NCBI GenBank assembly: GCA_023634235.1
Contig: JAMKCF010000079.1
Location: 315,001-379,000, forward strand
DNA from: Pisaster brevispinus
Taxonomy: Eukaryota; Echinodermata; Asteroidea; Forcipulatida; Asteriidae
Direction of reading: 5' to 3'
Length of the DNA: 64,000 nt
Under the pieces are notes generated by a model that had not been told where the DNA came from, did not search any database, and saw only the letters and a list, made by a program, of their open reading frames with translations. Made by a program: the position numbers and the translations under genes. This document shows, one piece after another, positions 801 through 63,842 of the stretch. Position 1 is the first letter of the stretch. Each line of letters opens with the position of its first letter.

Positions 801-1223
801 TAAATGCAATTAATGACCTTACTGTTCTGAGCAGACGTTAAATTCTGCTTCGTCAAACACAACGTACTCAATGTACTTCAACTTCATCTCCATCTCAACC
901 AGAACGTGGAGCAGACTGATCATCAAGTTTGTCCCCACCGAGGATTACTTCCGCCTTCAGGGATGTGAAACGACCTAGCTGCCAAGATACACAAAGAAAT
1001 AAACCCATCATTTTCAAGCCGTAAATTGATGTTACTTCTGGCTTGAAATAGCTTTAAAACCCTAAACGGCAGGGAACAATTTCATTCAGCAATGGGAGAC
1101 TTTTGGGGACACTAGGTGGCAGCAGACTAACCAGGTAAACCCATTGTTCAGTAGGATTTGAAACTTTGCATGGTGGAAGTATAACTAAGAGAGGTTTGCG
1201 GTAACACCATGTGAAAATCTTTT

Positions 1224-1640
1224 TAGAGTAGTGTGTGTGTGTGTGCCTTCATATTCACTACCTTATGGAGACCGAGAACAAAACAGAAAAGGGAAAACAA
1301 AGGGTCTCCATAGGGAAATTCTAAAGACTGGATTGCTCCACAAGGAATTTTGTGTACAAAGTCTATGGGAGGTTCTTAACTACAGGGACAAAGGAAAGAA
1401 GAAAAGATGTCTCCACAAGGATGCAAAAACAGGAATATATGTGTGTGTGTGTGTGTGTGCCCTTACACATGCCAACTTACGGGGTATTTTTAACAGTAGA
1501 ACAATGCTACCCCACAAGGTTTTCTTTGTTCAAGTGGTACCCCACAGAGGATTTCTTTAGAAAAGGGAATAATAGAACAATGAAAGTACCCCGTAACTGC
1601 CAAGGTTGGGTGTGTGTATGTGTGTTGGAGACAATCAGAG
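1224..1640. repeat. GT microsatellites flanking a dispersed repeat
   Basis: Three (GT)n runs (about 1230-1243, 1440-1458 and 1610-1624) surround a block at 1253-1430. That block has a clear second copy at 25069-25246 (shared words: CTTATGGAGACC, GGGAAAACAAA, TCTCCACAAGGATGC). The second copy also adjoins a CA-type microsatellite. The block lies in a DDX54 intron. The encoded frames are shadows with no domain. Confidence 0.6.
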
Positions 1641-2796
1641 CAAAAAGGAAAATAAACAAAACCCTAGAAGTTACCTTTTTTGAAAACTTCAAAGTCTGAA
1701 GCGGAAGCTCTCTGGTAGGAGAGAGGATGAGGGCTCTTGCTCCGGACTTTGCCGACCTCTGATGGAGTCTCTCAAACATGGGCAGGAGGAAAGCCGCCGT
1801 TTTACCACTGCCTGTCCTTGCCATGGCAACAACATCTTTACCCTCCATAATCACCGGGATACACTGAAACATTCAACAAAGTATGTCAATCAAACGATGC
1901 CAACTTAAAGGTATTATACAGGATTGGTAAGGATAAGTTTCATTTCAGTCTGAAAGCTTACTGATTAGGATAAATAGATAGATAGATCAAAATGGTTTAA
2001 TTAACCCAAAAAAGGCTAATTTATACTTAATAAAAACTTAAGAACCTTTAGGGGAGGTATGAAGACATCAAACAATACAACTAAAAATAAAAAAAATTAA
2101 CATCAAGAAAATGTAAAGAAAGGTCAATAAAAACTTAAGCAGCAATGAATAAACAAATTATTGTGTGTACGTATACGGAACAAATTTAAAATGGAGAAAC
2201 ATGAAGTTCATAAGCATTTTTATCTGTGAAATATTTCCCTCTGAAATGAAGTCATATTCATGAAAACTGTATCTGAAAACCTAAAAATACTTCACAGCTG
2301 ATTTCAGTTATTTCACAACCAAAATTAAGGACAATGTGTTTACAAGCTGGAAGTTGTGAGTGGTTTTTCATTATTTTCTCCTGACTCACACAATGGATTA
2401 AGCCCAAATTGTCACAGGTTCGTTGTTTCATGTACATGTACACAGATTATCACACAAAACTTGAGCACTGTCTGTGACTATTTTGTCAGGTCAACCAGCT
2501 CTGTATAATACATTGATGTACCTTTACCAAGTATTTTTGCTGATTTTCTTTATAATGAAAACCTACTACACACTGACTGTAAAATGTCATCCATTGTGGT
2601 TTGGAATGATAAATAAACTACACCAGACTGAATTATGATATCATGCAATGAATGGTTGTACACAGTACACAGTCAACCCTCCTACTGTCTGACCATTTTG
2701 ATATCGTCCACTGCGGTTTGGAAAGATAGATGGCTGATGCACTACATGTATGCCAGCCTCCAGCATGATATCTTGTGATGAATTCATTTACAATAA

Positions 2797-3049
2797 TTTG
2801 GGACTGAACAAAGAAAAATTGACTAGGGGCTCAGGCCTTGAACCTGTGACCTCTGAATTAATGTGTCGGCGCTCGACCAACTGAGCTACGTAGCCCTGAT
2901 ATTGGTGGTCTCCCTATTTGGACAATATCTTTGTTCAGGGGTGCCAGTCAGAGGCCATTCAACCTGTAACTGCTGTAAAGCTAGGGATCACACCCAAATT
3001 TCAATGCAACCTTGGAAGCTGCAGGAGAGGGATCACCTTAAGGGGATGA
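2797..3049 (-). mobile_element. tRNA-derived SINE, copy 1
   Basis: On the minus strand this copy contains a tRNA-like head (TAGCTCAGTTGGTCGAGC as the A-box region, GGTTCAAGGC as the B-box region), a TTTTTCTTTGTTCAG tail, and an upstream arm running from CCTTAAGG through TGGCACCCC. It aligns with copies at 4232-4489, 10866-10999, 11672-11752 and 25927-26060. It starts about 4-5 bp inside the intron after DDX54 exon 3, so it sits almost on the 5' splice site of that exon. Confidence 0.75.
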
Positions 3050-4114
3050 CTAACCTTTCTCAGGATTGGTGTTGGAATCTTGTAACCTTTCTTCATAATT
3101 CCGTTAAACACTGGATTACTTAAACCTACAAAGACACAAATCAGCTCCAACAATTAATATTTGACCTCTTATCACAAAATGTGGATAAGACCCTAACTGA
3201 ATAGGTTGCTACAGCTACGGCTACGACTGTTGCTAAGTGTTCTGCTAAAAACGCCCTCTACTTCAATGCATGATGACGCTGCAATCCAGCCTTAGCCGTA
3301 TCAGTAGCCCATAATTTGTTTGTTGACAAAGTTTGTTGACAAAATCCACACTATGAATCGTTTCTCAGATTTCTGAGGGTTGGTGTCTGTTCACGAATGC
3401 TGCAGCAAGAGATGCGATTAGTAGTTGGTACCCGCTGTCACCTTGCTAAACAAGGATGGATTCGACATCATCACAGTACAAATACAGTGACATTTTTTTT
3501 ATTTTTTTATTTCTAAGCAAATAGACACTGTGTTCAGCTGAAAATTTCACATGTAACTTTTATTGTATCTTTCGTTAAAATGTTGCCTGTAAATTAGCAT
3601 TACGATGACAAAAACCAATCAGTGACCCTACATTTAAAGAAAGAAATGTCTCACCCATTGACTGGAAACCTTCAGACTTCTTCTTCCTGTTCATCTGTTT
3701 AACAAGTTCTCTTGTATCGAGCTCTGCATCTGAAGTGTAACCGTCTAGCTTGGGAAAACCAATGGACACTCTTCCAGGCTGGGGGGGGGGGTAAGAACAA
3801 GAATTTGAATTCTCTACTGTTGACTAGTGTTGTACACAATTATGATATTTTGAGTTTCACTGAAAAACTAAATAGTTTGTACATAGAACATGCTGTCCAT
3901 TGGCAGTTTTTCAATTATTGTAACTTTGGTAAACTGTGTATGTATCAGCAGCAACTTGTATGACATGAGCATGTATGATGTACATGTACTGTAGCCAAAC
4001 TTGTTGGACTGTTGCTATGGCTCTCTTTTAACTTTGGTATTATCATAGTCACCATTACAACTATGAGTATGACAAGACCTATGTTAAAAAGAGCCATAAC
4101 ACTCTTGGAAACCA

Positions 4115-5445
4115 GTCATCTCGCCCCCCAGAAAAGTCGCCCACTACAAAGTCGACCCCTAGCAAAGTCGTAAAATGATAGAGTCGCCCACCGAAAAAGT
4201 CGCCCCCTACTTTATTCGCTACTTTATTGGGGTAATTTGGGTTTGAACAAAGAAAAATTGACTGGAGAGAGACTTGAACCAACGACCTCCGGATTAACGT
4301 ACCAGCGCTCTACCAACTGAGCTATCCAGCCCTATGTTGGCGGTCTCCCTATAAGTCAATATCTTTGTTCGGGGTGCCAGTCAGAAGCCATGCAACTGTG
4401 AGCTGCCGTGCAGCCAGGGATCACACTCAAGTTTACGATACATCCTGGGAAGCGGCACCCATGGGATCACCTTAAGGGGATGTGACTTTTTAATAATAAA
4501 TATCAAGTAATAAGCCACAATGTTTTGGGGTGATAGGAAATGTGTATTTACTTTATTTACTTCTTTTGTTGTTTTCAGTCATCTTTCCAAGGAGTCCTGA
4601 AAGTACTTGTTGCCAGAACTAAGGGCCTTTGCTTTTGCATCCCCAAATTGTGTGTGATTGGCAGAAAGAAACGCTTCGCCCTATTGGCTAAAAATTGCTC
4701 AATTCATTACACTGATTGAGTGGTGGCCTTCAACAACCAGTTGACAAGCCAAGCCTGTTACAGAGAACAGACAGCTGAACAGATTGTTTCACTTATCAGA
4801 GGGTTAGATCCGTGTAGCTCTGTACTTATGTGCGCTGGTATACCAGATTTTGTGTACATTTGTATGCAAGGAAAACATTTCACAGCCCATAATTTCTTTT
4901 TTATACAACTCTGGGAACTAACCCCCCATCTAAGATATTTGTGGAATGGTCCTGTTTAGGATCTCCTGGATGATGAAATCCCTCGGGGCTTTTAAAGTGA
5001 TACAAAACAAGAAACATTTAAATTTTACCATCCAACGCCGGTAGACCCCCTCCCACAAAGGTTGCAATCAAATGTATTACTTGGTTTTGGTGTACGTGCT
5101 TGGAACATAGTTTATGTGTTGAAATTTTCATTAAATTGTGTACCTTTTTTAAACTTGTTTATTATTTACTTTTAAATAAGGGTAGGCACCCCATTGTTTT
5201 TTACCAACTTGTTAACAACTCTAGCAGATTAAACTTGGAGCCTCTCTTGGAAGCTAAAGCAAAGCCTTCATGAAAGACTTGAAACATAACTTGAAACGTC
5301 AGGCCTAAAAGAAAAAGAAAATTGGCACAGTCACTTTGTAAAATGACTTTATCACTCAAACTTTTACACGGGGCAGCTTTGTCGGGGGCGACTCTGTCGT
5401 CAGGGGGTGGCTTTGCTAGGGGCGACTTAGGCCATAGCTACCTAA
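4115..5445. mobile_element. Candidate element with AAGTCGCCCC-rich inverted ends
   Basis: The left end (4115-4215) is a run of degenerate AAAGTCGCCC motifs. The right end (5360-5445) carries the same motifs in inverted orientation, including AAGTCGCCCCTAGCAAAG when read on the minus strand. A SINE (4232-4489) is nested inside. No transposase frame was seen between the ends, and I could not define a target-site duplication. It lies in the first DDX54 intron. Confidence 0.45.
4232..4489 (-). mobile_element. tRNA-derived SINE, copy 2 (most complete)
   Basis: The minus strand reads GGATAGCTCAGTTGGTAGAG (tRNA D-arm/A box) then TCGTTGGTTCAAGTC (B box), followed by TTTTTCTTTGTTCAAACCC. About 150 bp upstream of the tRNA head (CCTTAAGGTGATCCCA to GGCACCCCGAAC) is shared with copy 1, so the family has a conserved leader as well as a tail. 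Confidence 0.8.
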
Positions 5446-6334
5446 TGTCATGAACATTTGACATCCACTGTTCAGTCATTAATTGCAAGTATATATCTCT
5501 TCAACAAATTGTTGACACCTTCCATCGAACTACAGAAGCTGTTAAAAACATTTTTTAAAGGAGTACAGCGCCCCAGTTAGCCGGCCCGGTATGCCTGGGG
5601 TCCTTTTTTAAAATACTATTTTAGTATTTTTATTATAATAAAAGTGAAAGCTGGTTAAAAACGGGTTAGCTTAATACGATTGTTCTTAATCTTACACATA
5701 TGTACACTGCCTAAATACTAGTTATGTATATGACCACTGGTCATTGAAGGAAAAAGTAATAAATAGTACCCAGTGCTGGTGATATCATTTTACCTGTCTC
5801 TCTGTGGGAGCAACCGGCGAGTCCGTCTCCATATCCGACTCCATTCCTGATTCCATTCCACTGTCATCAATTTGTTTTGGTTTAACGTCGGTGTCTTTCT
5901 TTCCATTGGTTTCATACCGCCTGGCAGACCTGCCTTTATTCTGTTTGCCCATGACTTATTACAGCAATACTTTATGCTTAACGTGTATTTAATGTCAATA
6001 AAGGATTCCAGACGGATCATTATAAATTTTTAAAGTTGAAAATCTACGGCAGGTTTTCAGTCGATCTGCGGTCTGTGATTCCATCTACAAAGGCCCACAC
6101 AGACCAGACTGGAGTCGGCACTACATTTAGTGCCAGCACAAAATTTCAAAAAACCTTGTTAACGACCGTCATTGACAGTGCGAACGTAACCCTGAACCTG
6201 TAAAATCGTCAAATCTGAAATTGTTTCTACTCGCATGTCTTTCGTACATCCCAAATCATAATCCATATGCGTCCCGATTAAATAATTGTTTAATAAAATA
6301 CATGAAGCTGTTCGGGATTTGAAATTTTTTGTTA

Positions 6335-10865: not shown

Positions 10866-10999
10866 AATAATTTGGGTTTGAACAAAGAAAAATTAAATGG
10901 AACGGGACTTGAACCAACGACCTCCGGATTAACGTACCGGCGCTCTACCAACTGAGCTATCCAGCACTATGTTGGCGGTCTCCCTATTAGTCAATATCT
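10866..10999 (-). mobile_element. tRNA-derived SINE, copy 3 (truncated)
   Basis: This copy has the same tRNA-like head and TTTTTCTTTGTTC tail as copy 2 on the minus strand, but it is cut off just upstream of the tRNA head at about AGTCAATATCTT. The leader arm is missing. Confidence 0.75.
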
Positions 11000-11403: not shown

Positions 11404-12483
11404 TTATGCCTGTGGTTCAGGCAAGGTGGTTCCCGATTTTTCCTCTAACTGGTAGTATGGAGGCGGAACTGCAGGGTGTTGGTTCCCACCTAAGGCAAGC
11501 TGGGGCGCCATGTTGGAGAGTGGAACATGGTAGGCCTGCAGCGGTGAAATGGCATAGCCCTGCATCTGTTGTGGATGTCCAGGCTGCTGAATGTAGGCTG
11601 AAGAGGGAAAAAGATGTTACGACTTATCTGTCATTTGAGTATTCAATAGAGGTGCAGATTCCTCTTCCTCTTTAGTGCAAGACTGTTAATGCGGAGGTCT
11701 CAGGTTCAAGTCCGGCTCTAGTCAAATTTTCTTTGTTCAACCCAAAAACTATTGAAAACTTAACCAGTCAGTTTCATTTGTGGTTTATTGCTTGACTTGC
11801 AGCCTGAACACCAATTTGGTTGCCAGTGCTGAATATGCCAAAGGAGTTGAGATGGTTTCAGGAATGCTTAAGGAAGGCTTGATGAACTGTAGCCTTGATC
11901 AAGGCGCGTCAGCTGCATGGAATGATTAAAGTCGCATTTTGCACCGTTTGTGGGTATATGAGCTTGCATATACAGTACAATGTGAGTGACTATTTGTTGA
12001 CGCGCCTTGATCCTTTTGTTCAAGGCGGAGCTAACTACACTAATGTCCGTAATAACTTTATTCTTATTGGTTCTGGTTTGACTTTGTAACTTTTTGCTAC
12101 GACACCAATCACAGGATGTAGCTTACACTGTGTACATATGGTCATGTTCATCAACACAAGATGAGCACACACTCATGGAGGTCAAAGTTATGAGCCAGTG
12201 TGTGGCCATCATATAAAATGACCATGTGTACAATATTTGCCATATCCTGTGATTACACAAAATGTTTGCAAGTTTGCCTCTTTCAAGAAACTCTGAAGCC
12301 CAAGGGATGTCAATGGAAAATCCTGAAACCAGGAAAAAGCCTGAGAAATCACAGGCCTAGGTTCGGAATTCTTCTGCAACTCAACGGTTCGAGCTGACCC
12401 TGCTGCATTGGCATGGCCTGGTCGTATGGTTGAGGAGATGTCATGATAGTTACGTTGCCTTGGTTCAGAACATAGTGGTGAAC
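11404..12483 (-). CDS. Gln/Pro-rich protein, last two exons, unidentified
   Basis: I do not recognise this gene. Exon 12399-12483 (minus) has acceptor TGTGCAG and encodes VHHYVLNQGNVTIMTS, then QPYDQAMPMQQ. It can end at GG|GTCAGC. The next exon, 11404-11597, follows a TCTTCAG acceptor and encodes YIQQPGHPQQMQGYAISP, then QAYHVPLSNMAP and PAVPPPYYQ. It stops at TAA (11404-11406) after LPEPQA. With these bounds the two exons join in phase (85 nt, then 194 nt including the stop). The Gln/Pro/Tyr-rich composition resembles C-terminal tails of RNA-binding proteins such as the Boule/DAZ type. That is only a resemblance of composition. Unlike the other genes in this window, no lesion is visible. 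Upstream exons were not found. Confidence 0.5.
11672..11752 (+). mobile_element. tRNA-derived SINE, copy 4 (fragment)
   Basis: The plus strand carries a fragment with the 3' half of the tRNA-like head (GGTTCAAGTCC B box) and the TTTCTTTGTTCAACCC tail. It is the only copy of this family in plus orientation. Confidence 0.6.
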
Positions 12484-12649
12484 CTGCACAAAATGATAAA
12501 ACAAACGTCCTTGTCATTCAAAAATACAAGATGAAAATGACTGAACTAGTTATTCAATCATTCATTTTAACAGTATTTAATACAGGATTGTTAAGGCTTA
12601 AAAACATCATTGTTTTATTTAACTCTGAAATGAAGTCATATTCCACAAA

Positions 12650-17400: not shown

Positions 17401-17645
17401 GAAAATCTATGCATCATTTTTATAGTCTGCACCAGTAAACTGTCTTCAGGAGTCCGTTCTTTATCATTCAAAACAATAAAATTGCCCCCAAAAAATTTAC
17501 CCAAATCTTGAAATTTAGACCATGCCAGTATTGTCGTTATTTTGTTGTTCTTCGAACCCAAAACTTAACTCAAAAAATTCCCGATACATCTCATTCTATG
17601 AAGTATTTTTTCAGTCTACACCAGTAAACTGTGTTCAGGAAAAAA
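14420..17645. repeat. About 185-bp satellite array, about 18 units, palindromic core
   Basis: Units recur at roughly 185-bp spacing. Their cores lie near 14475, 14637, 14826, 15012, 15202, 15389, 15575, 15711, 15898, 16028, 16213, 16402, 16590, 16770, 16962, 17145, 17333 and 17520, with some shortened units. Consensus words are AATCTTGAAATTTTGACC, GACCATGCCGGCATGGTC, TTTTTCGGACCCATAACTAA, CTGCACCAGTAAACTGTCTT and GAAACCATAAAATTG. The core is a perfect 18-bp palindrome in many units. Variants keep GACCAT and ATGGTC more often than the centre. Frames of up to 133 codons on the minus strand are shadows of the repeat. Two inverted units lie at 22715-23060. Confidence 0.9.
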
Positions 17646-18345: not shown

Positions 18346-20266
18346 CTGCTTCCTGATTAAGCCAGCCATGAACTTCTTGATGGGTTTGATGAACTGAGCC
18401 TCCGATACGAGAGCTGTCTGGACATCTGTTCTGTCATCTTGACATCCTGAAGGGGAAAAAGACCTCTTGAAAATATAAATCTTTCTAGCTTCCAACCAAC
18501 AATCTGGCTGAGCATCAATGTCAACTTTTAAGCTTATTGCAGATGCGAAGCTGCCAATATTTGCATGTTGCAATCAGTGAGATTTTGTACAAGAATCAAA
18601 GAGATATTTGGAATTACATTCAACATAATAGGGACAAAGTTTTTTATGATCAGGGAGAATTTCAAAATTGTTCATCACAACATAGAAAGATTGGTTTATT
18701 TTCAGGGAACTTCCTGCAGAGTCATGGAGAGTCGACAGCTTTAAAGATGCTCAGGAACAGATTTTATGGTGTCACTTTACCACAAATTTGTGCCCTTACA
18801 GTGCACTGTAAAATGCTTATTTCTTTTGGTTGCAAGCACAAAAATCTATCGAGAGGAGTGCCATTAGCCCTTTTTAGATATGGCAGTCACTTTACGAGGA
18901 GAGGACCAGGTTGCCCTCAAACCAGTTGGGTCAACAACTTGACACAGTGGAGTGATCTTTCAGTTGCTGAACTAAAAGGGCGCTGGGCTGCGCAGAATTG
19001 AAATAAGAGCTATTTCACAGAAGTGGGCGCCTACAGGCCAGACAACAACTCTTGGCAGTGTGATGTGATGAGAGACAAAGGATGAACCCTGTAAACATTC
19101 TCTACTGACCCCTTGCACCAATGTCACCTGCAGCTACTGTCTGCCATGCTCACCATTTTGGAAGTCAAAATGCACGTCCAAATTGTAGTAAGTGTGCCTT
19201 AAATGCACACTACACTGTATAACACACAGGGACTCCCAAAATGGCACAAGCAAGATGATTATTATGATGACGTCTGGTGAATTGGGTCAATTTGACTGTC
19301 TGTAAAATACCACTAAAAACTAAGGGTGACAGAGAGGGCTACGGACAAAATAATGATAGGAGTAACAATGAAAGACAGGGTGACAAATGAGGACTTAAGA
19401 ATGAAATCAAGAGTGCAGAATATTATTAAGACCATTAAATAAAAGAAGTGGAGAGGGGCAGGTCACCAAGCAAGAAGGTATGACAACAGCTGGACATGCT
19501 AAACAACCAAATGGACTCCAGAAACCAAACCTGAAAAAGAGGGGGATAAAAACAGAAGATGGAGGGATGAACTAGAAACATGTAAGGGCATCGCAAGGCA
19601 ACAGACGCTCAGGATAGAGTGACATGGAGAATTGGTGAAGAGGCTTTCCTCCTGCAGTGAAATAGGCTAGAAAGAAAGAAAGAAGAGAAAACACCACTGT
19701 GTAGCTCAAGAGTAGCTAAAAAAATTTCTTTTGTTGGTGTGTTTTTGTTTTGTTGGTGTGTTTTTATTGAAGAAGGGGGGGGGGCTGAATTGCTGGAAGT
19801 CAAATTGCTGTGATGAAGAAGCAATGTTTTTTATCAACCAATATTCTTGAAACTCTGAATTTTGTTTCTGGTAACCGAACGGTTCAAAAACGGTTACACA
19901 TTTACAAAAGTAACTGTAAACACACAGACTTAATTGCGTGGTTGCAGGCCTCCTTTTTAGGAAGGGGTTTTCCACTTTTTAATAAAGTTCTTTACATTCA
20001 AATCTTTACCTGCAAGCTTTTAGGTTCTTGGATCACGTCCACTTTCCACCACTGTGTCGGCACTACCAACTGCTCCATCTTGAGTATAAACTCAGCAATG
20101 CTGGCCTCAACCTTGGCAAAGGGTGCGCTGATCAACGCCAGAAGGACCTGCCCCTGGGTGTTTGGTGTCTGACCTGTCTCTGCAGGGTCGGTGGTCGGTG
20201 GATTCGCAGGAGGGCGCTGTACTTGGTCCGCAGGTCATCTAAGATATTGGCCGAGACCAAATCACC
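18346..20266 (-). pseudogene. Two exons of an unidentified conserved-looking protein
   Basis: Exon 20010-20266 (minus) has a CCTCCCCCAG acceptor and a CAG|GTAAAG donor. It starts GDLVSANILDDLRTKYSALL. After about 60 nt the sensible frame switches to one encoding TPNTQGQVLLALISAPF, then KVEASIAEFILKMEQLVVP and QWWKVDVIQEP. Exon 18346-18446 follows a TTCAG acceptor, ends CAG|GTAAAA, and encodes TALVSEAQFIKPIKKFMAGL, then IRKQ. The mixed hydrophobic/charged pattern looks like a helical repeat or scaffold protein, but I cannot name the family. The frame switch inside the first exon is either a real frameshift or a mis-called acceptor. Confidence 0.4.
18537..19010 (+). mobile_element. Remnant of the 1.7-kb unit family plus a LINE-like tail
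   Basis: 18540-18780 aligns with part of the unit tandemly repeated at 49.6-57.2 kb (GCTGCCAATATTTGCATGTTGC, GGTTTATTTTCAGGGAACT, GGAGAGTCGACAGC). 18880-19005 encodes GCPQTSWVNNLTQWSDLSV, which resembles the basic/aromatic C-terminus of LINE reverse transcriptases. The open frame of 154 codons spans both pieces and is probably fortuitous. Confidence 0.4.
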
Positions 20267-20639
20267 CTGGGGGAGGTAAAGATTAGAATAGATTAGATTC
20301 AAACCTTGTTATCCCTCAAAGGAAATTAAAATGGCCTTGAAAAATAACAGTTTACATAAGCAATACAGCCGACAAGTAACAAAAGGGACAACAAGTACAA
20401 AAAATACTTTTACATGTTTAAACGCAAACATATATTTAGTACAACTTTTACATAAAGGATCAGAGTCAGCCACATGACAGCCCATCGCTCCAGCCACTCA
20501 TCGCACCATTTGATAGCTACCGGAACAAATCTTTGTTAAAAATGAGTACTTCTGTAGTTGGTTCGGAATTTCGCATGTGGTGGAATATCAGTATTTAAAT
20601 AACAATTGACAAACTACGAAAGAACCTAAATTCAAAATT

Positions 20640-25583: not shown

Positions 25584-25926
25584 CCATGGAGCTTTTGGGA
25601 ACAGTATCCTCAGTGCTAGAGAATAAGATCAAGGAGGCTGACTCGTTTTTATTTGGAGAAAAATACAGCATTTAGTTTAGCAGGCAGACTTAAGAAAGTC
25701 TGAAATCAGATAACAGGTTGAATTTTCTCATCCCTGATAAATAGGTCAGGGAAAGAAATGTCTCACAAAAATTCATTAAAAATTGACGAATTAAAATAAA
25801 TGACGTTACCTTGAGTAGAGATTGTTTGCATTCCTTGAGCTTTCCAGCTTTGGGGTACGTTCTAGCTAGGTACGTCAGTACGTCAAGTAATATACCACAA
25901 GGGAAACTGACTGAGTAAATAAACAA

Positions 25927-26060: not shown

Positions 26061-28729
26061 CAATAATTATTACATCTTTCTTCCTTTGTCTGTTTTTTCC
26101 TTGTAAAGACCGGTTCATACTTCCTGCCAATGCAAATGCGAAGCCAATTTTTAGTGACGCAATAATCAGAACGCGCTTTTTTTCCAAATGTGACGTGGAT
26201 AAAGCCAGTATTATTTTTTTTGCCACGCACTAACTAAATGTATCTCCGACCAGAGATGTTAATAAACTAGACATGGTGAGGTTTTCTTACCATCTGAATA
26301 GCACTGATATATTGTTTCTGCTCCACTTAGATAAGAGCAAGATTCAACCACACGTCCGACATATCAGCTGTAGCTTCACGAACCTGCCGAAAAGAAAAAA
26401 AGACAAGAAAAATTATATTTTATCTGGAATGAGATTTGAAGAAAGTGCCAACCCACCCCCCCCCTCGAGGTCAACCAGAGAAAAATTATCGTGGCATAGG
26501 AGAGAACCAACGTACAACTCTACTCACCTATGGCCTTAGTCGGGAATCGAACCTGGGCCATTTTTGAGAGGTGAACGGTAAATCTCTGAAGGGAGTTGGG
26601 GTTTATATACAAATTATCAGGTGCATCAACTAGCCAGTCCAGAATCCATTGAAGTTGGAGTGACACACCCTTTTGGTGAGTGTTTTATTTCACTTTTGTC
26701 TTTCTCCTAGGCAGCCCATCTTTTGTTTTGTCTGTTGCTCCCTGGTTTGTTGTCCAGTTTCTTTTTCCTTTGTTTTTGTGGCCCTTTTCTGTGTTCTCTC
26801 TTTGCCTTGTTTTGGGGAGGGGGGGGGGGGTTCGGGGTTTTTTTCAGTTGATTTCAATCCATGCCATATATTGGGATAGGGGTGGTATTCATATTTTTAA
26901 TATTTTGTATGTATTGTGATTTGCCTGAATAAAGTATCATTATTATTATTATAAGTTGCCCACTCACCTGAGAGAAGACGTCCTTAGATTCTCGGATGTA
27001 GCCCTTCATAGCAAAAATTGCACCAATTCCATTGGCTGCAAACAGATTGCAGCCATCGTTGCGTAATACTTGTTTGTACATGGCCAGCGCTCTGTCCTGG
27101 TGACGTTTAATGTCAGGATGATACCCAGTTATACCCAATTGTTCCTGTTTTAAACCCTGCCCCACAAATACTATTGCCACAAACACAAATAAAGCTTCCA
27201 GTTGTACCCACAAAATCCCTCAAATGCAATTATAAAAGATTCCAGATTTGAAATCCCTGTCCATATGATACAACTCCTTAAAACACCCAATTATCACCCA
27301 AATGAACCCAAACACCTTCATGTAGTTGTAGCAATAATCCTTTCTGGTACTAAAATCTGGTCCACCCTTTCCTACTGAAACCCATGACACACCCACTTAT
27401 GCCCGTAACAATCTTTCTAACACCCAAAACATACCGACTTGACACATTATTTCCAGAAACACCCATGCAATTCCCACTCACACCCATCATATTCCTACTA
27501 ACACCAATAACATACCAACTTACACCCTTTATACCCAAACTCGTTGTACCTTTTCCTTGTCTCTTGTGGGTTGATACAGCGTCTGTAGCCAAACATTACC
27601 CAGTGACAGCAGAGAGTAGGTATCATTCTGGGTGGCGGTCTGTTTGAGGATTCGTTCAAACTTCCTCTGCCCCGGTCCCCATTCTTGTTTAGCAAGATGG
27701 AGGTTACCGATGAGGGACCAAGCATCTGGATGATCCTATGGTACAAACACCAAGAGGGAAAAATGCAGAATTAAACAAACTGTAAGTCAAGATAACTCGA
27801 GGCTGAACCCCGGATAACCCAGGTAAACCTACAAAAAACCTCAAGGCTTTATATAGAGCCCCAAAAAAAGAGCCTGTAAAAATGAGAGTCTATAAAATGA
27901 ACCAGACTTCAAGATAATTGTGTTCATTGGCAGAGGAGAGTACAAAATATTTTTCCCAAAGCAAAATAATCAAACCAGCCTAGAATCTAGGTGGGCTAGA
28001 CTTGGAAATCATCATTTTACCAGAAGGAAGTGTAAAAAAAATTGAAGTCATTTTGAGGTACGGTGGACAGGGTTCTCCCCAGATTTGTTCAAAGCTGTGG
28101 GGCATTCTTGACCAAAATTTTGAGATGTTTGGCCAAAGCACGCTAAATTGAAACAACATCTTTGGATTGTTTTCTACTTTCAAAGCTCTACTGTTTTAAA
28201 ACCTCTACAGTGCAATCTGCAGCATTCTTCATGCTTTTCTGTCCATTTTTTTTTTTAGAATGAAGGGACAAAAAATAAATATTAATAATTATTTCTTGTT
28301 TTCCTTATCAGCCGAAATTCAGTCATATTGGCACGCAAACCATGCGTATCGGCCCGATACTCAAGCAGGGGGAGAACCCTTGTGGACCCGCTACTAGAGC
28401 ACTACTTAGTTTGGGTAAGTTTGTCTGTACCCACCCATACTAAACAGTGCACTCCTACAGTGTCTACCATAGCTCAAAAAGGCTATGAGTGGGGGAACAA
28501 AAGAGTGCCCTCGGTGTTCAAGTTCTTAGCAACGTTTTTGGTCACTTTAGGGAGATTTGCATAACCAAGAGTATTGGAGAAACACAAGGAATATGAACAA
28601 TTGGTGTACAATACCTGGTTGATTTGCAGAGCTTCTTTGAACCAATCAGATGCCTCGTAGATCTGTCCCCGATCCCGAGCCATGCAGCCCAGACGCAAGT
28701 AGCCTAAAAAGAAAATATTCATTTGATCG

Positions 28730-29830: not shown

Positions 29831-31004
29831 CCTGTTTCATCTCCCCACCCAAAAAAGAAGAAGTAATTTACAAGTTTTTGTTTTTAATCGGGTCCCATCA
29901 CAGTATTTCCGCACCCCCCACCCCCGGCACCAAGACCAACTTACAATCAACGTAGTTAGGATGCTCTCTCAGGACGTCTTTATAGAATTTCTCGGCCTTG
30001 TCGAATTGAAACATGCTCTCAAAGAGACCAAGCGAGGTTGTAAGACATCAAGACTGAGATGGCGCCGTAGTATGTCTCATCATGCTCCGCCTCAAAATGG
30101 CACGCTTGAGAGAGGCTTCGTAGTAGCGCTACAGGAGAACAAGAATCAGATTTTAAAAAGGACTGATTGACAAGATCTTTGTGTTTCAAAAGAAAGGAAG
30201 TCCTTAGATGAAATCCGCCCACAAGAAAAAAAAAAAAAATGAAATGGGTTGAAACTTTTGAAGGTTGGTTCGCTCCAGGTTTTCAATTTTTCAATATTAA
30301 TGTAAAGGGCAGTCAGGATGGGCTAAGTGGTTTCTTCCCTGTCTTTCACCTCTGTGGATCCCAATTTGATTCCCGGACCAAAGCCTTGCATGTGGATTGG
30401 GTTTTCAGTCCCCGTCCGACAACGTGGGTTTTCATCCCACTTCTACAACTGAAACTTCTTGATTGTCTTCTTCACAAAAGTTAGTGTGATGTTTCCATTA
30501 GGATGCGTTGCAGACTATATAATTCAGAGTCAGATTCAGGATGTATATAAAAGAAGTTAATACAAAAATTCACACAATCCTTTTCCAAGCCAAATAGACC
30601 TTTGTCAAAATGCGACCATCTTGATGTGTCTCCCATTCATATCAAGAACACCAAACCGAGGCTGGAAGGAGAAATAGTCTGGTTCCTTTACGCACGATGC
30701 ATAGCACATTCCATTAATGTTATTGGATACAGGGAACATGACCAAGATGGCAGCAGCATGATGAAGATCTACCGCTTTTTTTTCCTACCTTTGCCTCTGG
30801 CTGGTTGCCAGGATGGAAATGCAAAGCTCCAACATTGTTCAAAATTTCTGGTGGTGCGTCTGCCTGGACCTTTTCTTTAAAAATACGAGTTGCTGTGCCA
30901 TAAGCAGTCAGGGCTCCCTAAAACATGTTACAAAAGAAAACAAAAACAAGCCAATATTTGTGAATAGTCATTACAGATCTGTTGGAATGATTCTGAAGAA
31001 AAAG

Positions 31005-33040
31005 AACTGTTACTGCACTGGTTCGGGTGCACAACGACTTTCTCTCCAACACTGACCAGGGTATGGTAACTGTTCTTGTGCTTTTGGACCTCAGCGCTGC
31101 CTTTGATACACTGGATCATGGGATATTGCTCAGTAGACTGAAGTCACATGTTGGCGTGACTGGAAAAACATTAGACTGGTTTTCATCATATCTCAGTAAC
31201 CGTCGTCAAACGGTTGTAGTCACTGGTGCTTCTCGCAGCGACTGTCTTCAATCTGGAACAGCTGCTTCATATCCCCTGCGTTATGGTGTCCCACAGGGGT
31301 CAGTTCTGGGTCCCATTTTGTTCAGCATCTACCTTCGACCACTTGGTGATGTCATTCGCAAACATGGTCTCAAGTGCCATTTTTATGCAGATGACACTCA
31401 GTTGTACATCTCTGCTCGACCAAACTCTGCTGATGTGACATCTCAGATTGATGTACTGGAGGCCTGTTGCCGCGACATTCGATCTTGGTTGACGTTCAAT
31501 TACTTGAAGTTGAACGATGGCAAGACGGAAATCATCATCTTGGGATCGCCTGCATCATTGAAGAAAGTTCCATCAGTAACTGTAAATGTCGGCACACATA
31601 ACATCAACCCCATAACTCAAGTCAGGACCCTCGGTGTCAACTTAGAGACAAACATGAGCATGCACTGTCACATCCGTGCAGTGTCTCGCACTGCCATGTA
31701 TCATCTTCACAACATCAGCAAAATTAAGTGTTACCTTGGTCGATCTGTTACTGAACAGGTCATTCACATGCTTGTTACGTCACGTCTGGACTACTGCAAT
31801 GCAGTGCTGGCTGGGCTACCTGCTTCCACTCTTGCTCCACTGCAAAGAGTCCAGAATTCTGCTGCTAGACTCTTAACTGGAACTAAGAAGCATGAGCATA
31901 TTACACCTGTGTTAATGCAATTGCATTGGCTACCTGTGAGATACAGAGTCATCTTCAAGATCTGTCTGCTGATTTTCAAATGTCAGCATGGTCAAGCACC
32001 AGATTACCTCTGTGAACTGCTCCATACTTGCAAACCAGTTAGGACCACACGGTTGTCTGCTGATGGATCCAGGTTGATGTGCCCACGGACCAGGTTAGCC
32101 TCAGCTGGTGGCAGAATGTTTTCTGCTGTTGGCCCACTGCTTTGGAACAAACTGAACATCAGCCTTAGGGAAGCTGACACTCTTAGCACATTCAAATCTG
32201 GCTTAAAAACACATCTGTTTCGGGAAGCATTTGGTGCAGTGTAATCTCTCTCAACTATGTACATTGCTCCCAATGATGATTAATTTTTAATTCTCTGAGT
32301 AGTGTTTAGCAGTTTGTAGCTGCATATCATTATCTTCTATTTGTATCTTTTGTATTTTATTGTGTATATAATTTTATGTCTGCTTTTTTTTAAATAATAC
32401 ATAGTTTTATAATAACAGGTTTTCATATTCATTTTTTACTTGTCGATTGGATGGATATATAATAATGTTCTGTGTCTTGGTGTGGCATTTTATATCCCAT
32501 TGGGATTTGTTTTTAAGTCATATATTTAGTACCATGTCAATTTTATATGGTTTGTTAAAAGCAGCTAGGAGCATATATATATTGTTTGAGGTTGCTGGGT
32601 CTGGTTGTGGTGAGGGTGGGTTGGATGGGGAGGTTAGTTCACCCGTCAGGTTCTGGGGTATCTATATTCAATTGTTTTGTATTCGGTTTATGTGTGTTCT
32701 TTGTACTATTTTACCTAGTCTTGCTTTCCTTAATTCCTTCCTTGGACAGATAGATTGATTGATTGATCATTATATAGGGGTGTTTACTGTTCACTTATTT
32801 CTATTGTGTAATGTTTTGTATTTATGTTTATTCAACTGTGCTTGTTTATATTATTATCTCATTTTTATAATTGCATCGTTTGGTTAGTTTGACTAGCTTA
32901 TTTTTTAACTTATCGTTTGATTAGGCTATATTACTATATTATTTTATGTATATCGTTGGATTGTAAAGCGCCAGGGAGCATTTTCTAAAATGGATTTGGC
33001 GCTATAGAAATGTCCATTATTATTATTATTATTATTATTG
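31005..33040 (+). mobile_element. 5'-truncated L2/CR1-type LINE with intact RT frame
   Basis: An open frame from 31027 (entered without a native start) to 32244 encodes about 405 residues of a non-LTR reverse transcriptase: LLDLSAAFDTLDHGILL, YGVPQGSVLGPILFSIYL, then the catalytic FYADDTQLY, and the C-terminal region LDYCNAVLAGLP and AARLLTG. There is no frameshift. The 3' UTR runs to a GCGCTATAGAAATG box followed by (ATT)n at about 33018-33040, a tail typical of L2/CR1-like elements. The 5' part (endonuclease) is missing. It sits in the plus orientation inside the CTR9-like intron between exons A and B. Confidence 0.9.
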
Positions 33041-33345: not shown

Positions 33346-34039
33346 GTGCTGGAATGCGTATCCAATCTCATTAGAGACTGTACATAGAATTATGACTTCT
33401 CACAGAGTTAATACACGTGCACGCACTCCCTCCTTCTTTACTGAACCAGAAATTTTTGTTACAAGACCAGAATCAAAATAAGAAAAACCTTCCTGACCCA
33501 GTTTAACGTGCATTTAAGTTAACTGCATTTATTTGAACTTAAGTGCTATTGACATGTAAGAGATGATTGATTTTTATTTGTCTTCATGGGTATTAAGTAT
33601 ACTTCATGATGTCAGTACTCAGTAGAATTGAAAAGTATTTTAACAGACTCAAAGTCAACATTTGAACATACCGGTACTTTGGTGAGTTCCAAGATCTGAG
33701 CCAATTCAATCAATCCATGCCTCAACATCTTCCGGGAACTGATCGACGACCTTCTGGAGGTGACCCTTGGCAGTCTCCCTATTGGTCTCATCACTGGATG
33801 TCGCATAGAGAGACCCAAGAATCTTCATGGTCTCATAGTTACCTGGTTGGGCTTTCAGTACATTTTTCGAAGCACTGGGCAGCCTGGTTTGAAACAAGAG
33901 GAGTGCATTTGGTTTTGGTCAACATAGTGCTGATTTACAGGCAAAATTATCAAGAAAGAAACAATCAAAGTCACCTTTCAGCTGACTAATGTCAACTTTT
34001 TGAGAAAACGAAAAGAAAAACAAATTAATTAATTTCAAC

Positions 34040-35352: not shown

Positions 35353-36420
35353 TTAACAGAGATAAAAACCACTAAAATAAACAACAGGCCAGAGCCAGGC
35401 CTTCTGCATGTTAAGGTATTGTAGTTTCAATAAATGTAGGGCATGCTGGTATGATTCGTAATCATTGACTAAAATAATCCTACAAGCTCTTTTTTGAATG
35501 CGTTCCAGTGGATTGTGTTGTTTTGTAGTAAGACCAGGATGCCAGACGGGGACTGCATATTCTAAAAGTGGTGGAATGAAACCAACATAAATGGTGACGA
35601 GGTCTTTGATTGCTAGTCCAAACCTTCTCAGGGTGGTTAACATAAATAACCCTCCACTGGCTTTACAGATAATGTCATTGATATGCATGTCCCATTTAAG
35701 ATTATTGGCCACCTTAATACCAAGTATTTTGAGGACTTCACTTGATTGAAGTTCTTGACCAGACAATTGAAGTGGATCTCGGGGAACAGGGTTCTTAGCA
35801 AATGTAATGTTCATAGAAAAACATTTTGCTGGGTTTATCAGTATGTTGTTTTCTGATGCCCATAAATCAAGTTGATCAAGAGTTCCTTGCATGATGCTGG
35901 TACTGCTAGTTGTTGTGTTCTCTATCAAGGTCATATCATCAACATACTTGAGGGTGAGATTACAACTCTCATTAGGCATTGCTGCATCATTTATCATGCT
36001 GAGAAAGGAGGCAGGGCCTGCCAGAGTTCCTCGTGGCACGCCAGCTTTGAGTACTGACCAGCTAGAGAGGGAGTCGTGATATTTAACGTACTGAATTCTG
36101 TTCGAGAGAAAGTCGGCGATCCATGGATCTATACATGGTCTAGCACCCATATTGAGTAGTTTAGTGATAGCTATATTATGGTCCACTCGATCAAAGGCTT
36201 TGCTAAAATCTGTTACAACTATACATGTGAGGCTTTTTGAATTATCGGTGTGTAGAAACACGTTGTTAAGGAGTTTGACCAAGTAGTGTGTGGTAGAATG
36301 ACCCTTACGGGCTCCGAACTGGTTGGGGTCAATGAGAGGTTCAATGTCTTCCGTGAGCCAACTAACAATAAAAGACTCTGGGACTTTGGCAAAATGGTCT
36401 GTTAAAGGAAGAGGAAAATT
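35353..36420 (-). mobile_element. LINE fragment with YVDD reverse transcriptase
   Basis: A 358-codon minus-strand frame encodes a non-LTR reverse transcriptase core: NQFGARKGHSTTHYL, VTDFSKAFDRVDH, AGVPRGTLAGPASF (usual form GVPQGT), catalytic YVDDMTLI, then LKILGIKV and PLLEYAVPVWHP. It differs in family from the LINE at 31 kb, with a YVDD instead of a YADD box. It is 5'-truncated near 36420 and the 3' end is not clear (about 34850-35350). Confidence 0.88.
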
Positions 36421-36429
36421 GGAAACCAA

Positions 36430-37160
36430 GAAACTTAAATTTCTTGATGCTGTATAACTGAAGTTTTAATATGCAGTTTTGATTAAAAGGGAAAACAAAG
36501 AACAAGTTTTGCAATTGTCTTGATTCTGTATAACTTAAATTATAACATGCACCTTTGATTAAAAGGGAAAATTATTTTGTTTGATTTTTTTAAAGATCAT
36601 CTCAACCAAATGTCCATATCATTGCTTTGTGACCTTTTGCGCTAGTGCTCTACACTCTCTCTTTATTTTCCAATTTTGTGCTAGCAGTTTGCTCGATTGT
36701 CATGGCAATGCAAACAGTGATGAATCAATTTGTTTACACCCATTTCCCTTGAAACACAGATGCAAAGTGCTACCCAAACTAAATAAGTATTATTAACAAA
36801 GTGAAAAACCTCAATTGTATTAACTTTCGTAGAACAAAGATGTGACATCAAGAAATGATATGCCACAAAATATGTAACTATAATCAATCAATGAATCAAA
36901 TCATAATAAACCTATCCACATAATTTCAGATGTTCATATGTAAACAGCTTAATAAGCAATAATTGTGGGAAATGAGAAATGAATAGTGACCATCTTGCTC
37001 ATGAAAAATTGGGGACAAATACAACTTTTTTCATCATTTTTCTGTAAACTTAGGATCTAAGTTGCCTTTAGAAAATAAATATTCTTGTTTAAAAAACCTT
37101 GGCTTTATGTATATGTTGATTATGATTGAAATGCTTAAAGCCAAGTAAAAGTAAAAAAAC
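36430..37160. other. Spacer, no gene seen
   Basis: AT-rich sequence. A direct duplication of about 75 bp (GATGCTGTATAACTGAAGTTTTAAT ... GATTAAAAGGGAAAA, repeated as GATTCTGTATAACTTAAATT ...) lies at 36447-36570. Nothing else supports a gene. Later exons of the THAP gene would be expected here on the minus strand but were not recognised. Confidence 0.4.
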
Positions 37161-45100: not shown

Positions 45101-45400
45101 TTTGTTGTACATCTCAGCCAAGCAAGATTAACAAGCAGAAAGCCTGGTTTAACGCTCAAACATCCTGATAGGAGGAACCAGGTTGGACACACTGGTAGCA
45201 CGTTTACCTTAATGATAGACGAAAAATACCTGAATATCACAGGGATGATAAACAGTTAGGTACAGTTAGGTACCAGGCGTAACAACCTAATTAAGTAGGA
45301 CGTTATGGCTGATAATCTATTTCTGCTCAGTAATTTTATACTGCGCGCATATCATTTTTTTTGTCTTTTTTGTTTGTGCTAATAGGCAAATAAAGGTCCA
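42115..45400. repeat. Segmental duplication, copy 1
   Basis: Blocks at 42115-42160, 42345-42662, 43782-45207 and about 45265-45370 align in the same order and orientation with 59530-59570, 60860-61137, 61875-63453 and about 63910-63995. Shared words include GACACGGGAAGGAGGC, TGGCTCTAAAAATCATGGA, GCATGACACTGGATGGGCAAG, TCACTATGTCAGTGGAGCC. Relative to copy 2 it lacks about 450 bp that in copy 2 contain a CUB exon, and each copy has a different insertion. Confidence 0.85.
42676..43770. mobile_element. Foldback element F1, 1095 bp, double palindrome
   Basis: The element consists of two successive long inverted repeats built of the same arms (GAACTAGGTCTTGC, GCCGCGGAGTAGATTTTGG, GGGAGACTACTT, GGACAGTTCTTTTGAGA, GATCGGATCAAGGGGACT, GAGACCAAATAAGAACTCAC). 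It is flanked by the 11-mer GGGAGAGAAAA (42665-42675, 43771-43781). The left end carries the long terminus (TTTTTAAGGCTTTGCATG). The right end is short and stops at TATTCGGTTT (minus strand). No protein is encoded. Confidence 0.85.
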
Positions 45401-46680
45401 ATCTCATGTACAGCTGCTTACCTTAAAACTACACTTAACCCCTAAAAAATACACTTCATAACTACACACTGCGTTATTTTAAATAATATGACAACATTAC
45501 CTGAGCAAATAAAAGGCTTATTTCACAGGATAAGTTTCATTTTCCCACAGTTATCATCACAATGATCTATAGTGATACCAGATAAGGCCCATCAATAGTT
45601 AAGAGGCAGTGATTTTTGTTGAACATTTGGAGTCAGATAAGCCGCGTCATGCATGAAGGAAAATAATGTACGTTAACTGCATACACACATTAACACCCAT
45701 TTCTCAACAAACCTGGAGAGTCAGGGATCCATGGCAACACTGTATGATTAGCTGAGTATCCTGGGAAATAGTTCGATTCATCAGAGACAAACTCCAGCAG
45801 GACTTCACTCCCGATGGATGACCGGTCCATAGGGCCAAGCTGGCTGCACAGGTTGACGTTCTGGCCTGTCCTCAAATCACTCGGCTGTAATTCAGACAAT
45901 AAAATCAAGAATTGTCAAAAATACATCTGAAGATCTTTTAAAAAACATTTTTAAGAAGTGGGGGAAAAAAGGAAAATTGTTTCACCATTAGTGGATTTGC
46001 CAAATAAATATTTGCATTTTTTATGATTAAAAATATAAGATCTTTCATCAGCAATGTGATGTCTCCAAAAACAAATTGATTGAAAATTGCTTTATGAAAA
46101 AAAAAAATAGTAGGCAGGTTATTGAAGATTGATCTCTTGAACCTAAGCATGAACAAAGAATCAGCCAATCAATTTCAATGGGAAATAATTGGAAAGTATT
46201 TCAAAAGTTGTTGAAATGTTGAGGAGTTAGATTCTGACCTTGAGGTAGTCAGTTGTGAAGCTTCCCACCATGTTTCTCCAACTCCAACTTGCTGAAAAAA
46301 TCTGAACCCTGACGTCTGGTTGCGAGTGTATCAATAGAATTATTAAGAGAAGATTTATTTCCAGTTTACATAATTGGAACTCTAGGTGGCAGCAAACTTA
46401 CTGTGATATCTTCTACTGTTGACAGTACTGAGCATGCACACATCTTTAAGACATTGAATGACCTGGTAAGTCTACTGACCCATGCCTCAGGGAATGCTCC
46501 GCTCTGTGCAAAAAATCAGAAGGCTGTACACTAAAATATATAACGAATGACATTAACAGGAACTTGATGAATAGTACCTCAAATAATGTCGCTCTCAGTC
46601 AGCATCGGGTATCACAGGCCCATGAATGTCAAGAAGCGCAAAATCTGGTGGAGGAGTAAAGAGGATCTGACAGCCGCAGT
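43955..46680 (-). pseudogene. CUB-domain secreted protein exons, copy 1, damaged
   Basis: CUB domains are about 110-residue beta-sandwich modules of extracellular proteins. Minus-strand exons: 46578-46680 (DCGCQILFTPPPDFALLD, then a stop before its donor), 46239-46301 (SASWSWRNMVGSFTTDYLK), 45713-45884 (GSEVLLEFVSDESNYFPGYS, the C-terminal half of a CUB domain) and about 44535-44696 (TLDVITQEASVFCGDANTF, TWISEGSEVI, then a shift). The middle two are intact with GT/AG sites. The last one changes frame near 44600 relative to the paralogue at 62.8 kb. The N-terminal CUB half present at 63654-63842 is absent here. Additional possible exonic pieces lie at 43960-44040. The likely first exon is at 57447-57559. 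Confidence 0.65.
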
Positions 46681-46740
46681 CTGCTTGGAGGAGAGGTAGT
46701 GTAGGCAGGCTTTTGGTTGAACTAGAAACTAAAATCTGAG

Positions 46741-49452: not shown

Positions 49453-49484
49453 AGCTATCAACCAGATGCCTCAATCTCAAAACA

Positions 49485-60662: not shown

Positions 60663-61150
60663 TGATTTACACCTTTAAACTATATATGCACCTCAAACTC
60701 ACAATTTGACTTACTTGTGAGATTCATACACAAGAAAATTATACATAAACAGTCCCTCACACTTAAGGAAAATACACTGTATATAATTATATGCACTGAA
60801 AGTAACAATATGACCAGACATTAAATCAGTTCTTCTAAATACAAATATGCATGAATAAAACATTCTCAGCAAAAAACTTACTACAAATTGGCTCTAAAAA
60901 TCATGGAGAAACTACTACACACAAAAAAATAGATAGTGGCCTGACATTTCGACCCTAGCAGACTCTTTCTTGAAGGCTAAATGACAAGACTACAAACAGA
61001 AAAAGTGGAGTGGAGATAGACATTAGAGATGAAAGCACACAGAGAAAGCAGGAGGATGAACAAAAAGGAGGGTAACAAAAGGGGGTGGGGGTGGGGGAGG
61101 GGCTGGTTTGACCACAAGAGGAACGAATACAAAAGACAAAATAAATGATG

Positions 61151-61861
61151 TATATTCGGTTTGCGGTAATCACCGTGTGTATATCTACTAGCTGTGTAGA
61201 TTTGTTCTTAAAGAACTAGGTCTTGCTTTTTATTTTATTTTTATTCTACTGCCGCAGAAAAGATTTGGAAATCGGGAGACTACTTTGGGAGACTACTTAG
61301 TTCTGAAAAGAACTGTCCAGCTTAAAAGCTACTACATGGGCGGTGGGTAGGAAATCGGCCGGGACTACTACTTTGGCTTCATAGTGGATCGGATCAAGGG
61401 GAATTCTCAGTATTAACTTCATTGCCGCGGAGTGAGTTCTTAATTGGTCTCAACATTTAGACTAGCTTGCTCTAATCATTGTCTCATCCTCAGGAGACGA
61501 TGACTAGAGCAAGCTAGTCTAAACGTTGAGACCAATTAAGAACTCACTCCGTGGCAGTGAAGTTAATAACGAGAAGTTCCCTTGATCCGATCCACTATTA
61601 AGCTAAAGTAGTAGTCCCGGCCGATTTCCTACCCACCGCCCAGGTAGTAGCTAATAAGCTGGACAGTTCTTTTCAGAACTAAGTAGTCTCCCGAAATAGT
61701 CTCCCGATTTCCAAATCTACTCTGCGGCAGTAGAATAAAAATGTTAAAAAAGCAAGACCTAGTTCATTAGAACAAATCTACATAGCTAGTAGATATACAT
61801 ACGGTGTTAATGCAAACTGAATATACATTGATACCTCATCATGCAAAGCCTCAAAAAGTAT
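61151..61861. mobile_element. Foldback element F2, 711 bp
   Basis: A single long inverted repeat with the same arms as F1 meets at a short loop near 61492 (CATCCTCAG). The 13-mer AAAATAAATGATG flanks it (61138-61150, 61862-61874). The long terminus (TTTTGAGGCTTTGCATGATG on the minus strand) is on the right and the short one (TATATTCGGTTTGCGG) on the left, the opposite orientation to F1. No protein is encoded. Confidence 0.85.
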
Positions 61862-62139
61862 AAAATAAATGATGGGAAGAGGGAGAGAAAAGTAAATGAT
61901 TAGTGAATGAGGCAGACTAGAGGGGTCTTATCTGTGGTAAAAAGGAGAAGGCAAAGACAAAAGGTTATTAGACATTTCCTTCTTGGATGTTTAGACCATG
62001 GGGTTGAATGGTCTGGAGACGCCTTATCCATAGCTTCTCCCTACTCAGACGAACAATCTTGTGGTTTCCTAGTGCCTCAAAGCCCTGTAAAAACATGAGA
62101 GAAATGGAGTGATTAGAAAGATTAAAGTGACGTCCTACA

Positions 62140-63842
62140 CAGGTGTATCCAGCTTTTGGATGTTGACTGTGGATCTGGCTGGGATTTAGTCTCTCTGTAA
62201 ACACCTGCACAAACTGTTGAGAGTTGTGCAGGCGGTCAATAAACACATACATGTACAATTAATTATCTTATACAATGCAAGTATGTCGATAAAATGTCAA
62301 TACAAATGAAGGCAACTCCTAGATATTCAGTCTCTACAAAATAATTATTATCTCGAAGAAAGCAAATGCATGAGTGCGTGATCGGAGAACATGAAATATA
62401 TAGCATGACACTGGATGGGCAAGAAGGCATAAGTTACCTAACACACAGGGTCCACTAATCATCATCATTCACACAACAAACTCACAAACCTATGCCTCCA
62501 AGTCGAATCCCACCAGCCAAACCGCAGTCAACACCCCCATGCATTCCATTTCAAGTATTACACATAATTATTATTATTATTATTATTACAATATGAACCT
62601 GGTTTGACGACAAGCAGATAATAATAATATAATATATAATAATATATACAAAAAATAAAGACATGTAGGCTGACCACTACCTGTACTAGTAGTAATTTTG
62701 TACTGATAGCCATAATTCAGTTCATACATGGAAAAAGCCACCGTCCAACCACTCTGATGTCCAACACTTTACAGGAAAATGTCTCTTTCTCTCGAGCTCT
62801 CTGCAACCTTGGAAGCACTACTCGTCGTCTGTTTGGAATTTTGCGATGACTTCACTCCCCTCGGTGATCCAAGTGAAAGTATTTGCATCCCCACAGAAGA
62901 CAGACGCTTCTTGGGTATCACGTCCTGAATCTGAACACACACAAAAAAAGAAAAGATTTCACTATGTCAGTGGAGCCAGGTTGCAATTGAAAGTTTTGTT
63001 GGTGGTGCAATAAGTGAAGGCAAAAAACAATTAAAAGAGATACGACCTTATTGCGTGGAGCAAAATGTGTGCTTGCTATAGCGTGTTAGATATGACCTTG
63101 CGACCTATCAAGTTACGACCTTGTGGTTTTTTTTTTAACTTTAAAGCACGTTTGCCCAAAACAAGGCTAAAAGCCAGTCTTGGTTTTGGGGGTTACGTAC
63201 AAGACAAAAAACATTCAATATGAGAATAACTCAGGGAGCTAAAGGAGGATTTGCGTCTGAAATCAGTAGGATGGAGAGAAATGTTGATTTAACAGGTAAG
63301 GAGTTCCAAAGAGATGTACATGGAATAAAGCTGTTGATTGCTTTTTGTTCTACATCTCAGCCAAGCAAGATTAACAAGCAGAAAGCCTGGTTTAACACTC
63401 AAACATCCTGATAGGAGGAACCAGGTCGGACACACAGGTAGCACGTTTACCTTGCAAACATCCGTGTAAAAGATAGAGGCTGGCTACAGACCTTCTGTGG
63501 GAAAGCAGTTGTAGTTTTGATCCCATGCCTTCACCAACAAGATTAACAAATACAGTGCGCTTCTGATTCTATCTTAATAATTGAAATCGAAAGACATTTT
63601 TTTCAGCAGTCAAATCAGTTGGAGACAAATTAACGGTAAAACCCTGTTCTTACCTCAATGAAGTCCTTCGTGCATTGCAGATTGGACTCAAGTTTGAGTT
63701 GACTAAAGGAAAGCATCACGTACTGCCATGGGACGTCAGTTTGACAATGATTGTTGAAAGCACAGAAGGGAGTTGTTTTATAATGGGTGCTGGAAGCGTT
63801 GTTCGGTGATTGGATGATTCCAGTCTCTGATGTCAGCGTTAT
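62140..63842 (-). pseudogene. CUB-domain exons, copy 2, partly intact
   Basis: Exon 63654-63842 (AG acceptor, GAG|GTAAGA donor, exactly 63 codons) encodes the first half of a CUB domain: SETGIIQSPNNASSTHY, PFCAFN, WQYVMLSFSQLKLESNL, CTKDFIE. The next exon (about 62765-62930) encodes the second half (ASVFCGDANTFTWITEGSEV, IAKFQTDDE) but has lost one T near its start relative to copy 1, which puts it out of phase, and has a TAG after DDE. Smaller exon-like pieces with acceptors follow at about 62150-62210 and 62000-62090. Copy 1 has the opposite pattern of damage, so each copy decayed separately. Confidence 0.6.

Follow-up and report, generated by a model that had tools for sequence, protein, structure and literature searches.

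The 64-kb window analysed here, positions 315,001 to 379,000 of contig JAMKCF010000079.1 from the sea star Pisaster brevispinus, contains minus-strand fragments of CTR9, DDX54 and an MS4A-like gene that are partial, unprocessed copies, and the CTR9 and DDX54 copies are disabled. We consider it probable (about 0.7) that the window is a mosaic of interspersed segmental duplications in repeat-rich DNA. A preliminary description of this DNA had placed CTR9 and DDX54 exons on the minus strand, some with disabling lesions and others beside them intact, and had argued that the retained introns exclude retroposition. Both points were confirmed by tblastn and by reading of the splice sites: by eye, AG is present at 15 of 17 expected acceptors and GT at 16 of 17 expected donors. 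With introns and most splice sites kept, the fragments must be unprocessed copies, which rules out retroposition and hence processed pseudogenes. The best protein matches of the fragments are sea-star proteins, chiefly from Asterias; among the 120 best hits listed, CTR9 is best matched by Asterias rubens and DDX54 by Asterias amurensis, Patiria and Acanthaster. On aligned columns, CTR9 and DDX54 are 93.7% and 91.9% identical to Asterias, 90.6% and 83.0% identical to Patiria, and 89.8% and 79.4% identical to Acanthaster, respectively, decay and species divergence being inseparable in the comparison with Asterias. This order of similarity accords with a forcipulate sea star.

For CTR9, eight minus-strand exons between 33.88 and 25.81 kb cover codons 361-746 of the 1255 codons of the A. 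rubens gene (tblastn; Table 1). Codons 1-360 and 747-1255 had no credible tblastn match in the window; codons 210-284 did align at 62.9-63.2 kb, but with E=2.5 and across stops, and this was taken as chance. Altogether, the CTR9 exons have suffered four frameshifts, one stop and the loss of two splice acceptors. With Patiria and Acanthaster as outgroups, 363 aligned columns contain 17 changes found only in the window versus 3 found only in A. rubens (p=0.0026), the former count including changes on the window species' own branch. At sites where all other references agree, the window has 11 changes and Asterias 1, and 11 of the 260 columns that are invariant in eight reference proteins are altered in the window. 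This load would correspond to roughly 1-2% neutral nucleotide divergence since the loss of constraint, a rough figure that again includes the species' own branch. Pooling CTR9 and DDX54 gives 23 window-only versus 8 Asterias-only changes (p=0.011).

DDX54 is represented by five minus-strand exons, from 5.95 to 0.84 kb, that correspond to codons 1-242 of 884 (tblastn with A. amurensis DDX54, P0123). Exons 1-4 are open and have good splice sites by eye, while exon 5 retains a single base where the relative has 17 codons. No further DDX54 was detected by tblastn in the 842 bases beyond the break. The preliminary description also held that intact versions of both genes must exist elsewhere. CTR9 and DDX54 are of normal length in other sea stars, so it is very unlikely that the window's partial copies are the functional genes.

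A fragment absent from the preliminary description is the 3' end of an MS4A-like (PF04103) gene, whose last two exons lie on the minus strand at 12.48 and 11.60 kb and encode codons 209-293 of 293, with 69-79% identity to the A. rubens protein; codons 1-208 were not found in the window. The A. rubens and A. amurensis proteins are 2 of 141 candidates under threshold. The A. amurensis entries for DDX54 (P0123) and the MS4A-like gene (P0002) give the same contig size, 17,744,229 bp, and as the two genes apparently share this contig, the interval 0.84-12.5 kb may be a single piece. The order on the minus strand, MS4A-like 3' end and then DDX54 5' start, is that expected of one random piece spanning two neighbours. 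With 22 chromosomes (PMC11090083), two genes would share one by chance in about 5% of cases. In A. rubens, whose chromosomes are reported to correspond nearly one to one with those of A. amurensis (PMC11090083), the contig sizes given are 14,301,440 bp for the MS4A-like gene and 10,582,139 bp for CTR9.

The exon at 20.0-20.3 kb, which had been described as frame-shifted and unidentified, can now be named SMG1: searched alone it matched with E=3e-4, and SMG1 accounts for the top five of the eight PDB sequences listed, while the remaining entries have E >= 1. The upstream portion, which would be out of frame, matched nothing in PDB, so the reported frameshift is at most a candidate. A putative later exon at 18.4 kb is collinear with SMG1 by order and by eye. 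The partial CTR9, DDX54 and SMG1 models in the window should not be annotated as genes.

How could such an assemblage arise? A repeat-rich sea-star chromosome probably received pieces of genomic DNA copied from several places, one perhaps covering the MS4A-like 3' end together with the 5' part of DDX54, and separate ones bringing the middle of CTR9 and part of SMG1. Such pieces would have been non-functional on arrival, would have served no purpose in the cell, and would then have decayed neutrally as unprocessed pseudogenes, with their intact parents presumably elsewhere in the genome. We regard the feature as real but ordinary: apparently, parts of unrelated genes were recently duplicated and interspersed, and at least two of them are disabled. 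The earlier proposal of broken copies of unrelated genes is supported, and their decay looks recent. The emphasis on a common strand fared less well: every host-gene fragment found does lie on the minus strand, but this would occur by chance in 12.5% of cases for four independent pieces and in 6.25% for five. Neither value is significant, so one-strandedness was dropped as evidence and the shared strand is probably a matter of chance.

Several observations weigh against a mosaic of decaying duplications. Besides the own-branch share in the CTR9 count, DDX54 exhibits no clear excess of changes (6 window-only versus 5 Asterias-only, p=1); of these, 4 of the 6 and 2 of the 5 fall at sites where all other references agree, the four including the alanine of PTRELA and, in exon 3, the glutamine of the Q motif. 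Neither MS4A-like exon is frameshifted, truncation being the only lesion; the SMG1 frameshift is a candidate only, given the lack of any PDB match for its out-of-frame part, and the putative SMG1 exon at 18.4 kb had no support when searched alone. The CTR9 and DDX54 genes of normal length were seen in other sea stars only. The link between the MS4A-like gene and DDX54 is a common contig size and not an observed adjacency, and MS4A-like genes may form a family, in which case chromosome placement by best hit may mislead.

The truncations also bear on the possibility that native genes are decaying in place after replacement, or that a degenerate haplotype was kept in the assembly. The introns and mostly preserved splice sites would suit such an origin, yet in CTR9, DDX54 and the MS4A-like gene the greater part of the coding sequence is missing and not merely mutated, one break lies mid-exon, and the A. 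rubens entries for CTR9 and the MS4A-like gene give contigs of different length. Fragments this incomplete are not simply a decaying haplotype; the collapsed haplotype entertained in the preliminary description fits poorly, and we consider decay in place very improbable.

Assembly or base-calling error, in the form of chimeric joins and false indels, would account for the small indels in CTR9, where four within about 1.1 kb of exon sequence are many for so few substitutions. However, the 50-bp deletion in DDX54, the changes at conserved sites and the premature stop are not typical base-calling errors, and there is no N in the 64 kb. Moreover, two reverse-transcriptase open reading frames in the window, one of them inside a CTR9 intron, together span 785 amino acids without interruption, whereas the indel density of CTR9 would predict 8.5 indels over this length, which makes gross base error unlikely; having been chosen for being open, these frames are an imperfect control. 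We regard error of this kind as the least likely of the explanations weighed here.

Several unrelated, intron-bearing fragments on one strand might also be expected if a rolling-circle or other DNA transposon had captured gene pieces and delivered them in one orientation. Maize Helitrons are reported to carry 0-12 gene fragments (PMC3288121), and partial copies of a palindromic repeat lie close to two of the fragments, about 85 bp past the point where DDX54 breaks off and about 160 bp away from CTR9 exon a. The window resembles the maize captures in holding several unrelated fragments in one place, but its pieces and their span are larger: the CTR9 piece is about 8 kb and a joint MS4A/DDX54 piece would be about 12 kb, spread over 60 kb, whereas the captured maize fragments are given as 28 bp to 7.6 kb (PMC3288121). 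In addition, Pfam scans covering most of the minus strand and about 29.8 of the 64 kb of the plus strand revealed no Rep/helicase or transposase family, the scanned part of the plus strand yielding only a retrotransposon reverse transcriptase. Capture by a transposon thus appears distinctly unlikely.

The preliminary description had favoured a young degenerating compartment. A non-recombining region of this kind, W- or Y-like, supernumerary (B chromosome) or pericentromeric, would gather fragments of many chromosomes, and the repeat load of the window (a 187-bp satellite, a 226-copy 12-bp minisatellite and a 1.7-kb tandem array among many tandem repeats) as well as a candidate ZZ/ZW region on A. 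amurensis chromosome 10 (PMC11757944) could be cited in its favour. Repeats, however, are reported to make up 61.64% of the A. amurensis genome (PMC11090083), so repeat load by itself does not mark a special compartment; the base composition is ordinary, with 36-43% guanine plus cytosine per 4 kb (39.09% is given for the A. amurensis genome; PMC11090083); CUB exons in the window appear intact; and the explanation requires a special location on top of the same duplications. We regard it as unlikely. Its narrower form, a young sex-limited (for example W-linked) or supernumerary segment built by serial import from several chromosomes, with about 1-2% neutral divergence since arrival, is improbable. 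A sex-linked reading would not be absurd given the A. amurensis candidate, yet nothing in the window points there; were the place sex-limited, it would offer a molecular handle on sea-star sex chromosomes. Judged by title, the papers retrieved on echinoderm B chromosomes included nothing on sea-star B chromosomes, and those retrieved on starfish pseudogenes and segmental duplication contained nothing related, as judged by title and the start of the abstract.

Interspersed segmental duplication has parallels in other animals. Truncated, intron-bearing interspersed duplications, which run between chromosomes and often lie near centromeres, have been proposed for human pericentromeres and for the Y chromosome of Bactrocera oleae (PMC3049792), and the window is similar in holding partial intron-bearing genes, apparently from different chromosomes, that are embedded in repeats and decaying. 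Duplicated (unprocessed) pseudogenes likewise keep introns and show disabling lesions and relaxed constraint, the last of these apparent for CTR9, but the window has gene parts only. The mixture of fragments and repeats recalls the gene fragments described on B chromosomes (PMC7509943). In the window, unrelated sea-star genes appear to have undergone interspersed duplication recently; synteny is described as remarkably conserved in genomes of its order (PMC9270726).

Two further claims concerned CUB- and THAP-type exons. A single CUB domain is split over two minus-strand exons whose halves join in phase. The domain match is real, with PF00431 at 22.5 bits (cut-off 21.4; E=1.5e-4), under the cut-off within a longer query, and cubilin as the best PDB match (E=1.6e-7 for the whole, 0.0024 for the best stretch); the second half searched alone had no Pfam match. 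The decay attributed to these exons was not borne out, no lesion being visible, and they may be part of a living gene with a repeat-filled intron of 17.8 kb. No THAP domain was found by Pfam in three minus-strand frames of 1-14.5, 17.5-35.9, 36.5-46.5 and 49.5-64 kb, or in one frame at 46.5-49.4 and 35.9-36.5 kb, the satellite at 14.5-17.5 kb being left out; since neither the SMG1 nor the MS4A exons were picked up by these scans, a short THAP exon could have gone unnoticed as well. Pfam matches below curated cut-offs were disregarded, namely Spec3 at 49.5-55 kb (E=0.009 and 0.02), Cys_rich_FGFR at 11-12.6 kb, Nucleoside_tran and ResIII at 1.5-1.9 kb, and TPR families in CTR9.

Table 1. Exons and reverse-transcriptase open reading frames located in the window (window coordinates).
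Feature	Position	Strand	Observation
DDX54 exon 1	5794..5952	-	ATG present, frame intact, donor GT
DDX54 exon 2	3652..3780	-	Frame intact
DDX54 exon 3	3053..3128	-	Leucine in place of the Q motif glutamine
DDX54 exon 4	1675..1865	-	Frame intact, PF00270
DDX54 exon 5	843..981	-	50-bp frameshifting deletion; similarity stops mid-exon at ~843
MS4A-like last exon	11405..11601	-	Open, stop codon present
MS4A-like penultimate exon	12380..12487	-	Donor not clear-cut
Putative later SMG1 exon	18346..18447	-	
SMG1 exon	20010..20276	-	Portion upstream out of frame (candidate frameshift)
CTR9 exon h	25807..25905	-	~14 first codons and acceptor lost; last CTR9 exon found
CTR9 exon g	26291..26384	-	Premature stop
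CTR9 exon f	26966..27109	-	Open; expected acceptor without AG
CTR9 exon e	27550..27735	-	Open
CTR9 exon d	28613..28706	-	Intact; 100% identity with A. rubens protein over 29 codons
CTR9 exon c	29943..30128	-	Two frameshifts
CTR9 exon b	30789..30917	-	Open; four window-only changes, all at sites where other references agree
LINE (long interspersed nuclear element)-type reverse-transcriptase frame	30997..32244	+	415 amino acids, open; in CTR9 intron between exons a and b
CTR9 exon a	33675..33883	-	Two frameshifts
Second retrotransposon reverse-transcriptase frame	35353..36465	-	370 amino acids, open
CUB second half	45710..45886	-	In phase, no lesion seen
CUB first half	63648..63842	-	No lesion seen; acceptor uncertain

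Repeats of several kinds surround the fragments. The palindromic element exists in two long copies, at 42.7-43.8 kb (1.05 kb) and 61.1-61.8 kb (0.68 kb), that are about 90% self-complementary and lie one in each copy of a direct duplication (42305-45210 and 60834-63453, 76-79% identity); partial copies of its end occur at 653-758, 1164-1220 and 34043-34102, two of them near the DDX54 and CTR9 breaks. A minus-strand open frame at 61968-62258 had no Pfam match and resembles the C-terminal part of a retroelement. An array of the 187/188-bp satellite extends from 14434 to 17641, and the satellite recurs in inverted orientation 5 kb off, in a short block at 22667-23066. The 12-bp minisatellite at 46736-49451 comprises 226 copies with 98% match and, as a side effect, gives long frames that are open in both directions. 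Rfam returned two matches only at gathering scores, both tRNA-like (4259-4331 and 10894-10966) and within a 146-bp repeat that has related copies near 2.8 and 25.9 kb; they are likely heads of tRNA-derived short interspersed nuclear elements (SINEs). ARAGORN reported one tRNA-Leu-like match at 41599-41690, absent from the Rfam matches, which is perhaps a SINE head or a real gene. Finally, the tandem array of about 1.7 kb at 49611-57096 has at least three copies in succession plus additional partial ones, which resemble one another at about 89-93%, and its unit contains a recurring plus-strand open frame of 79-87 amino acids.

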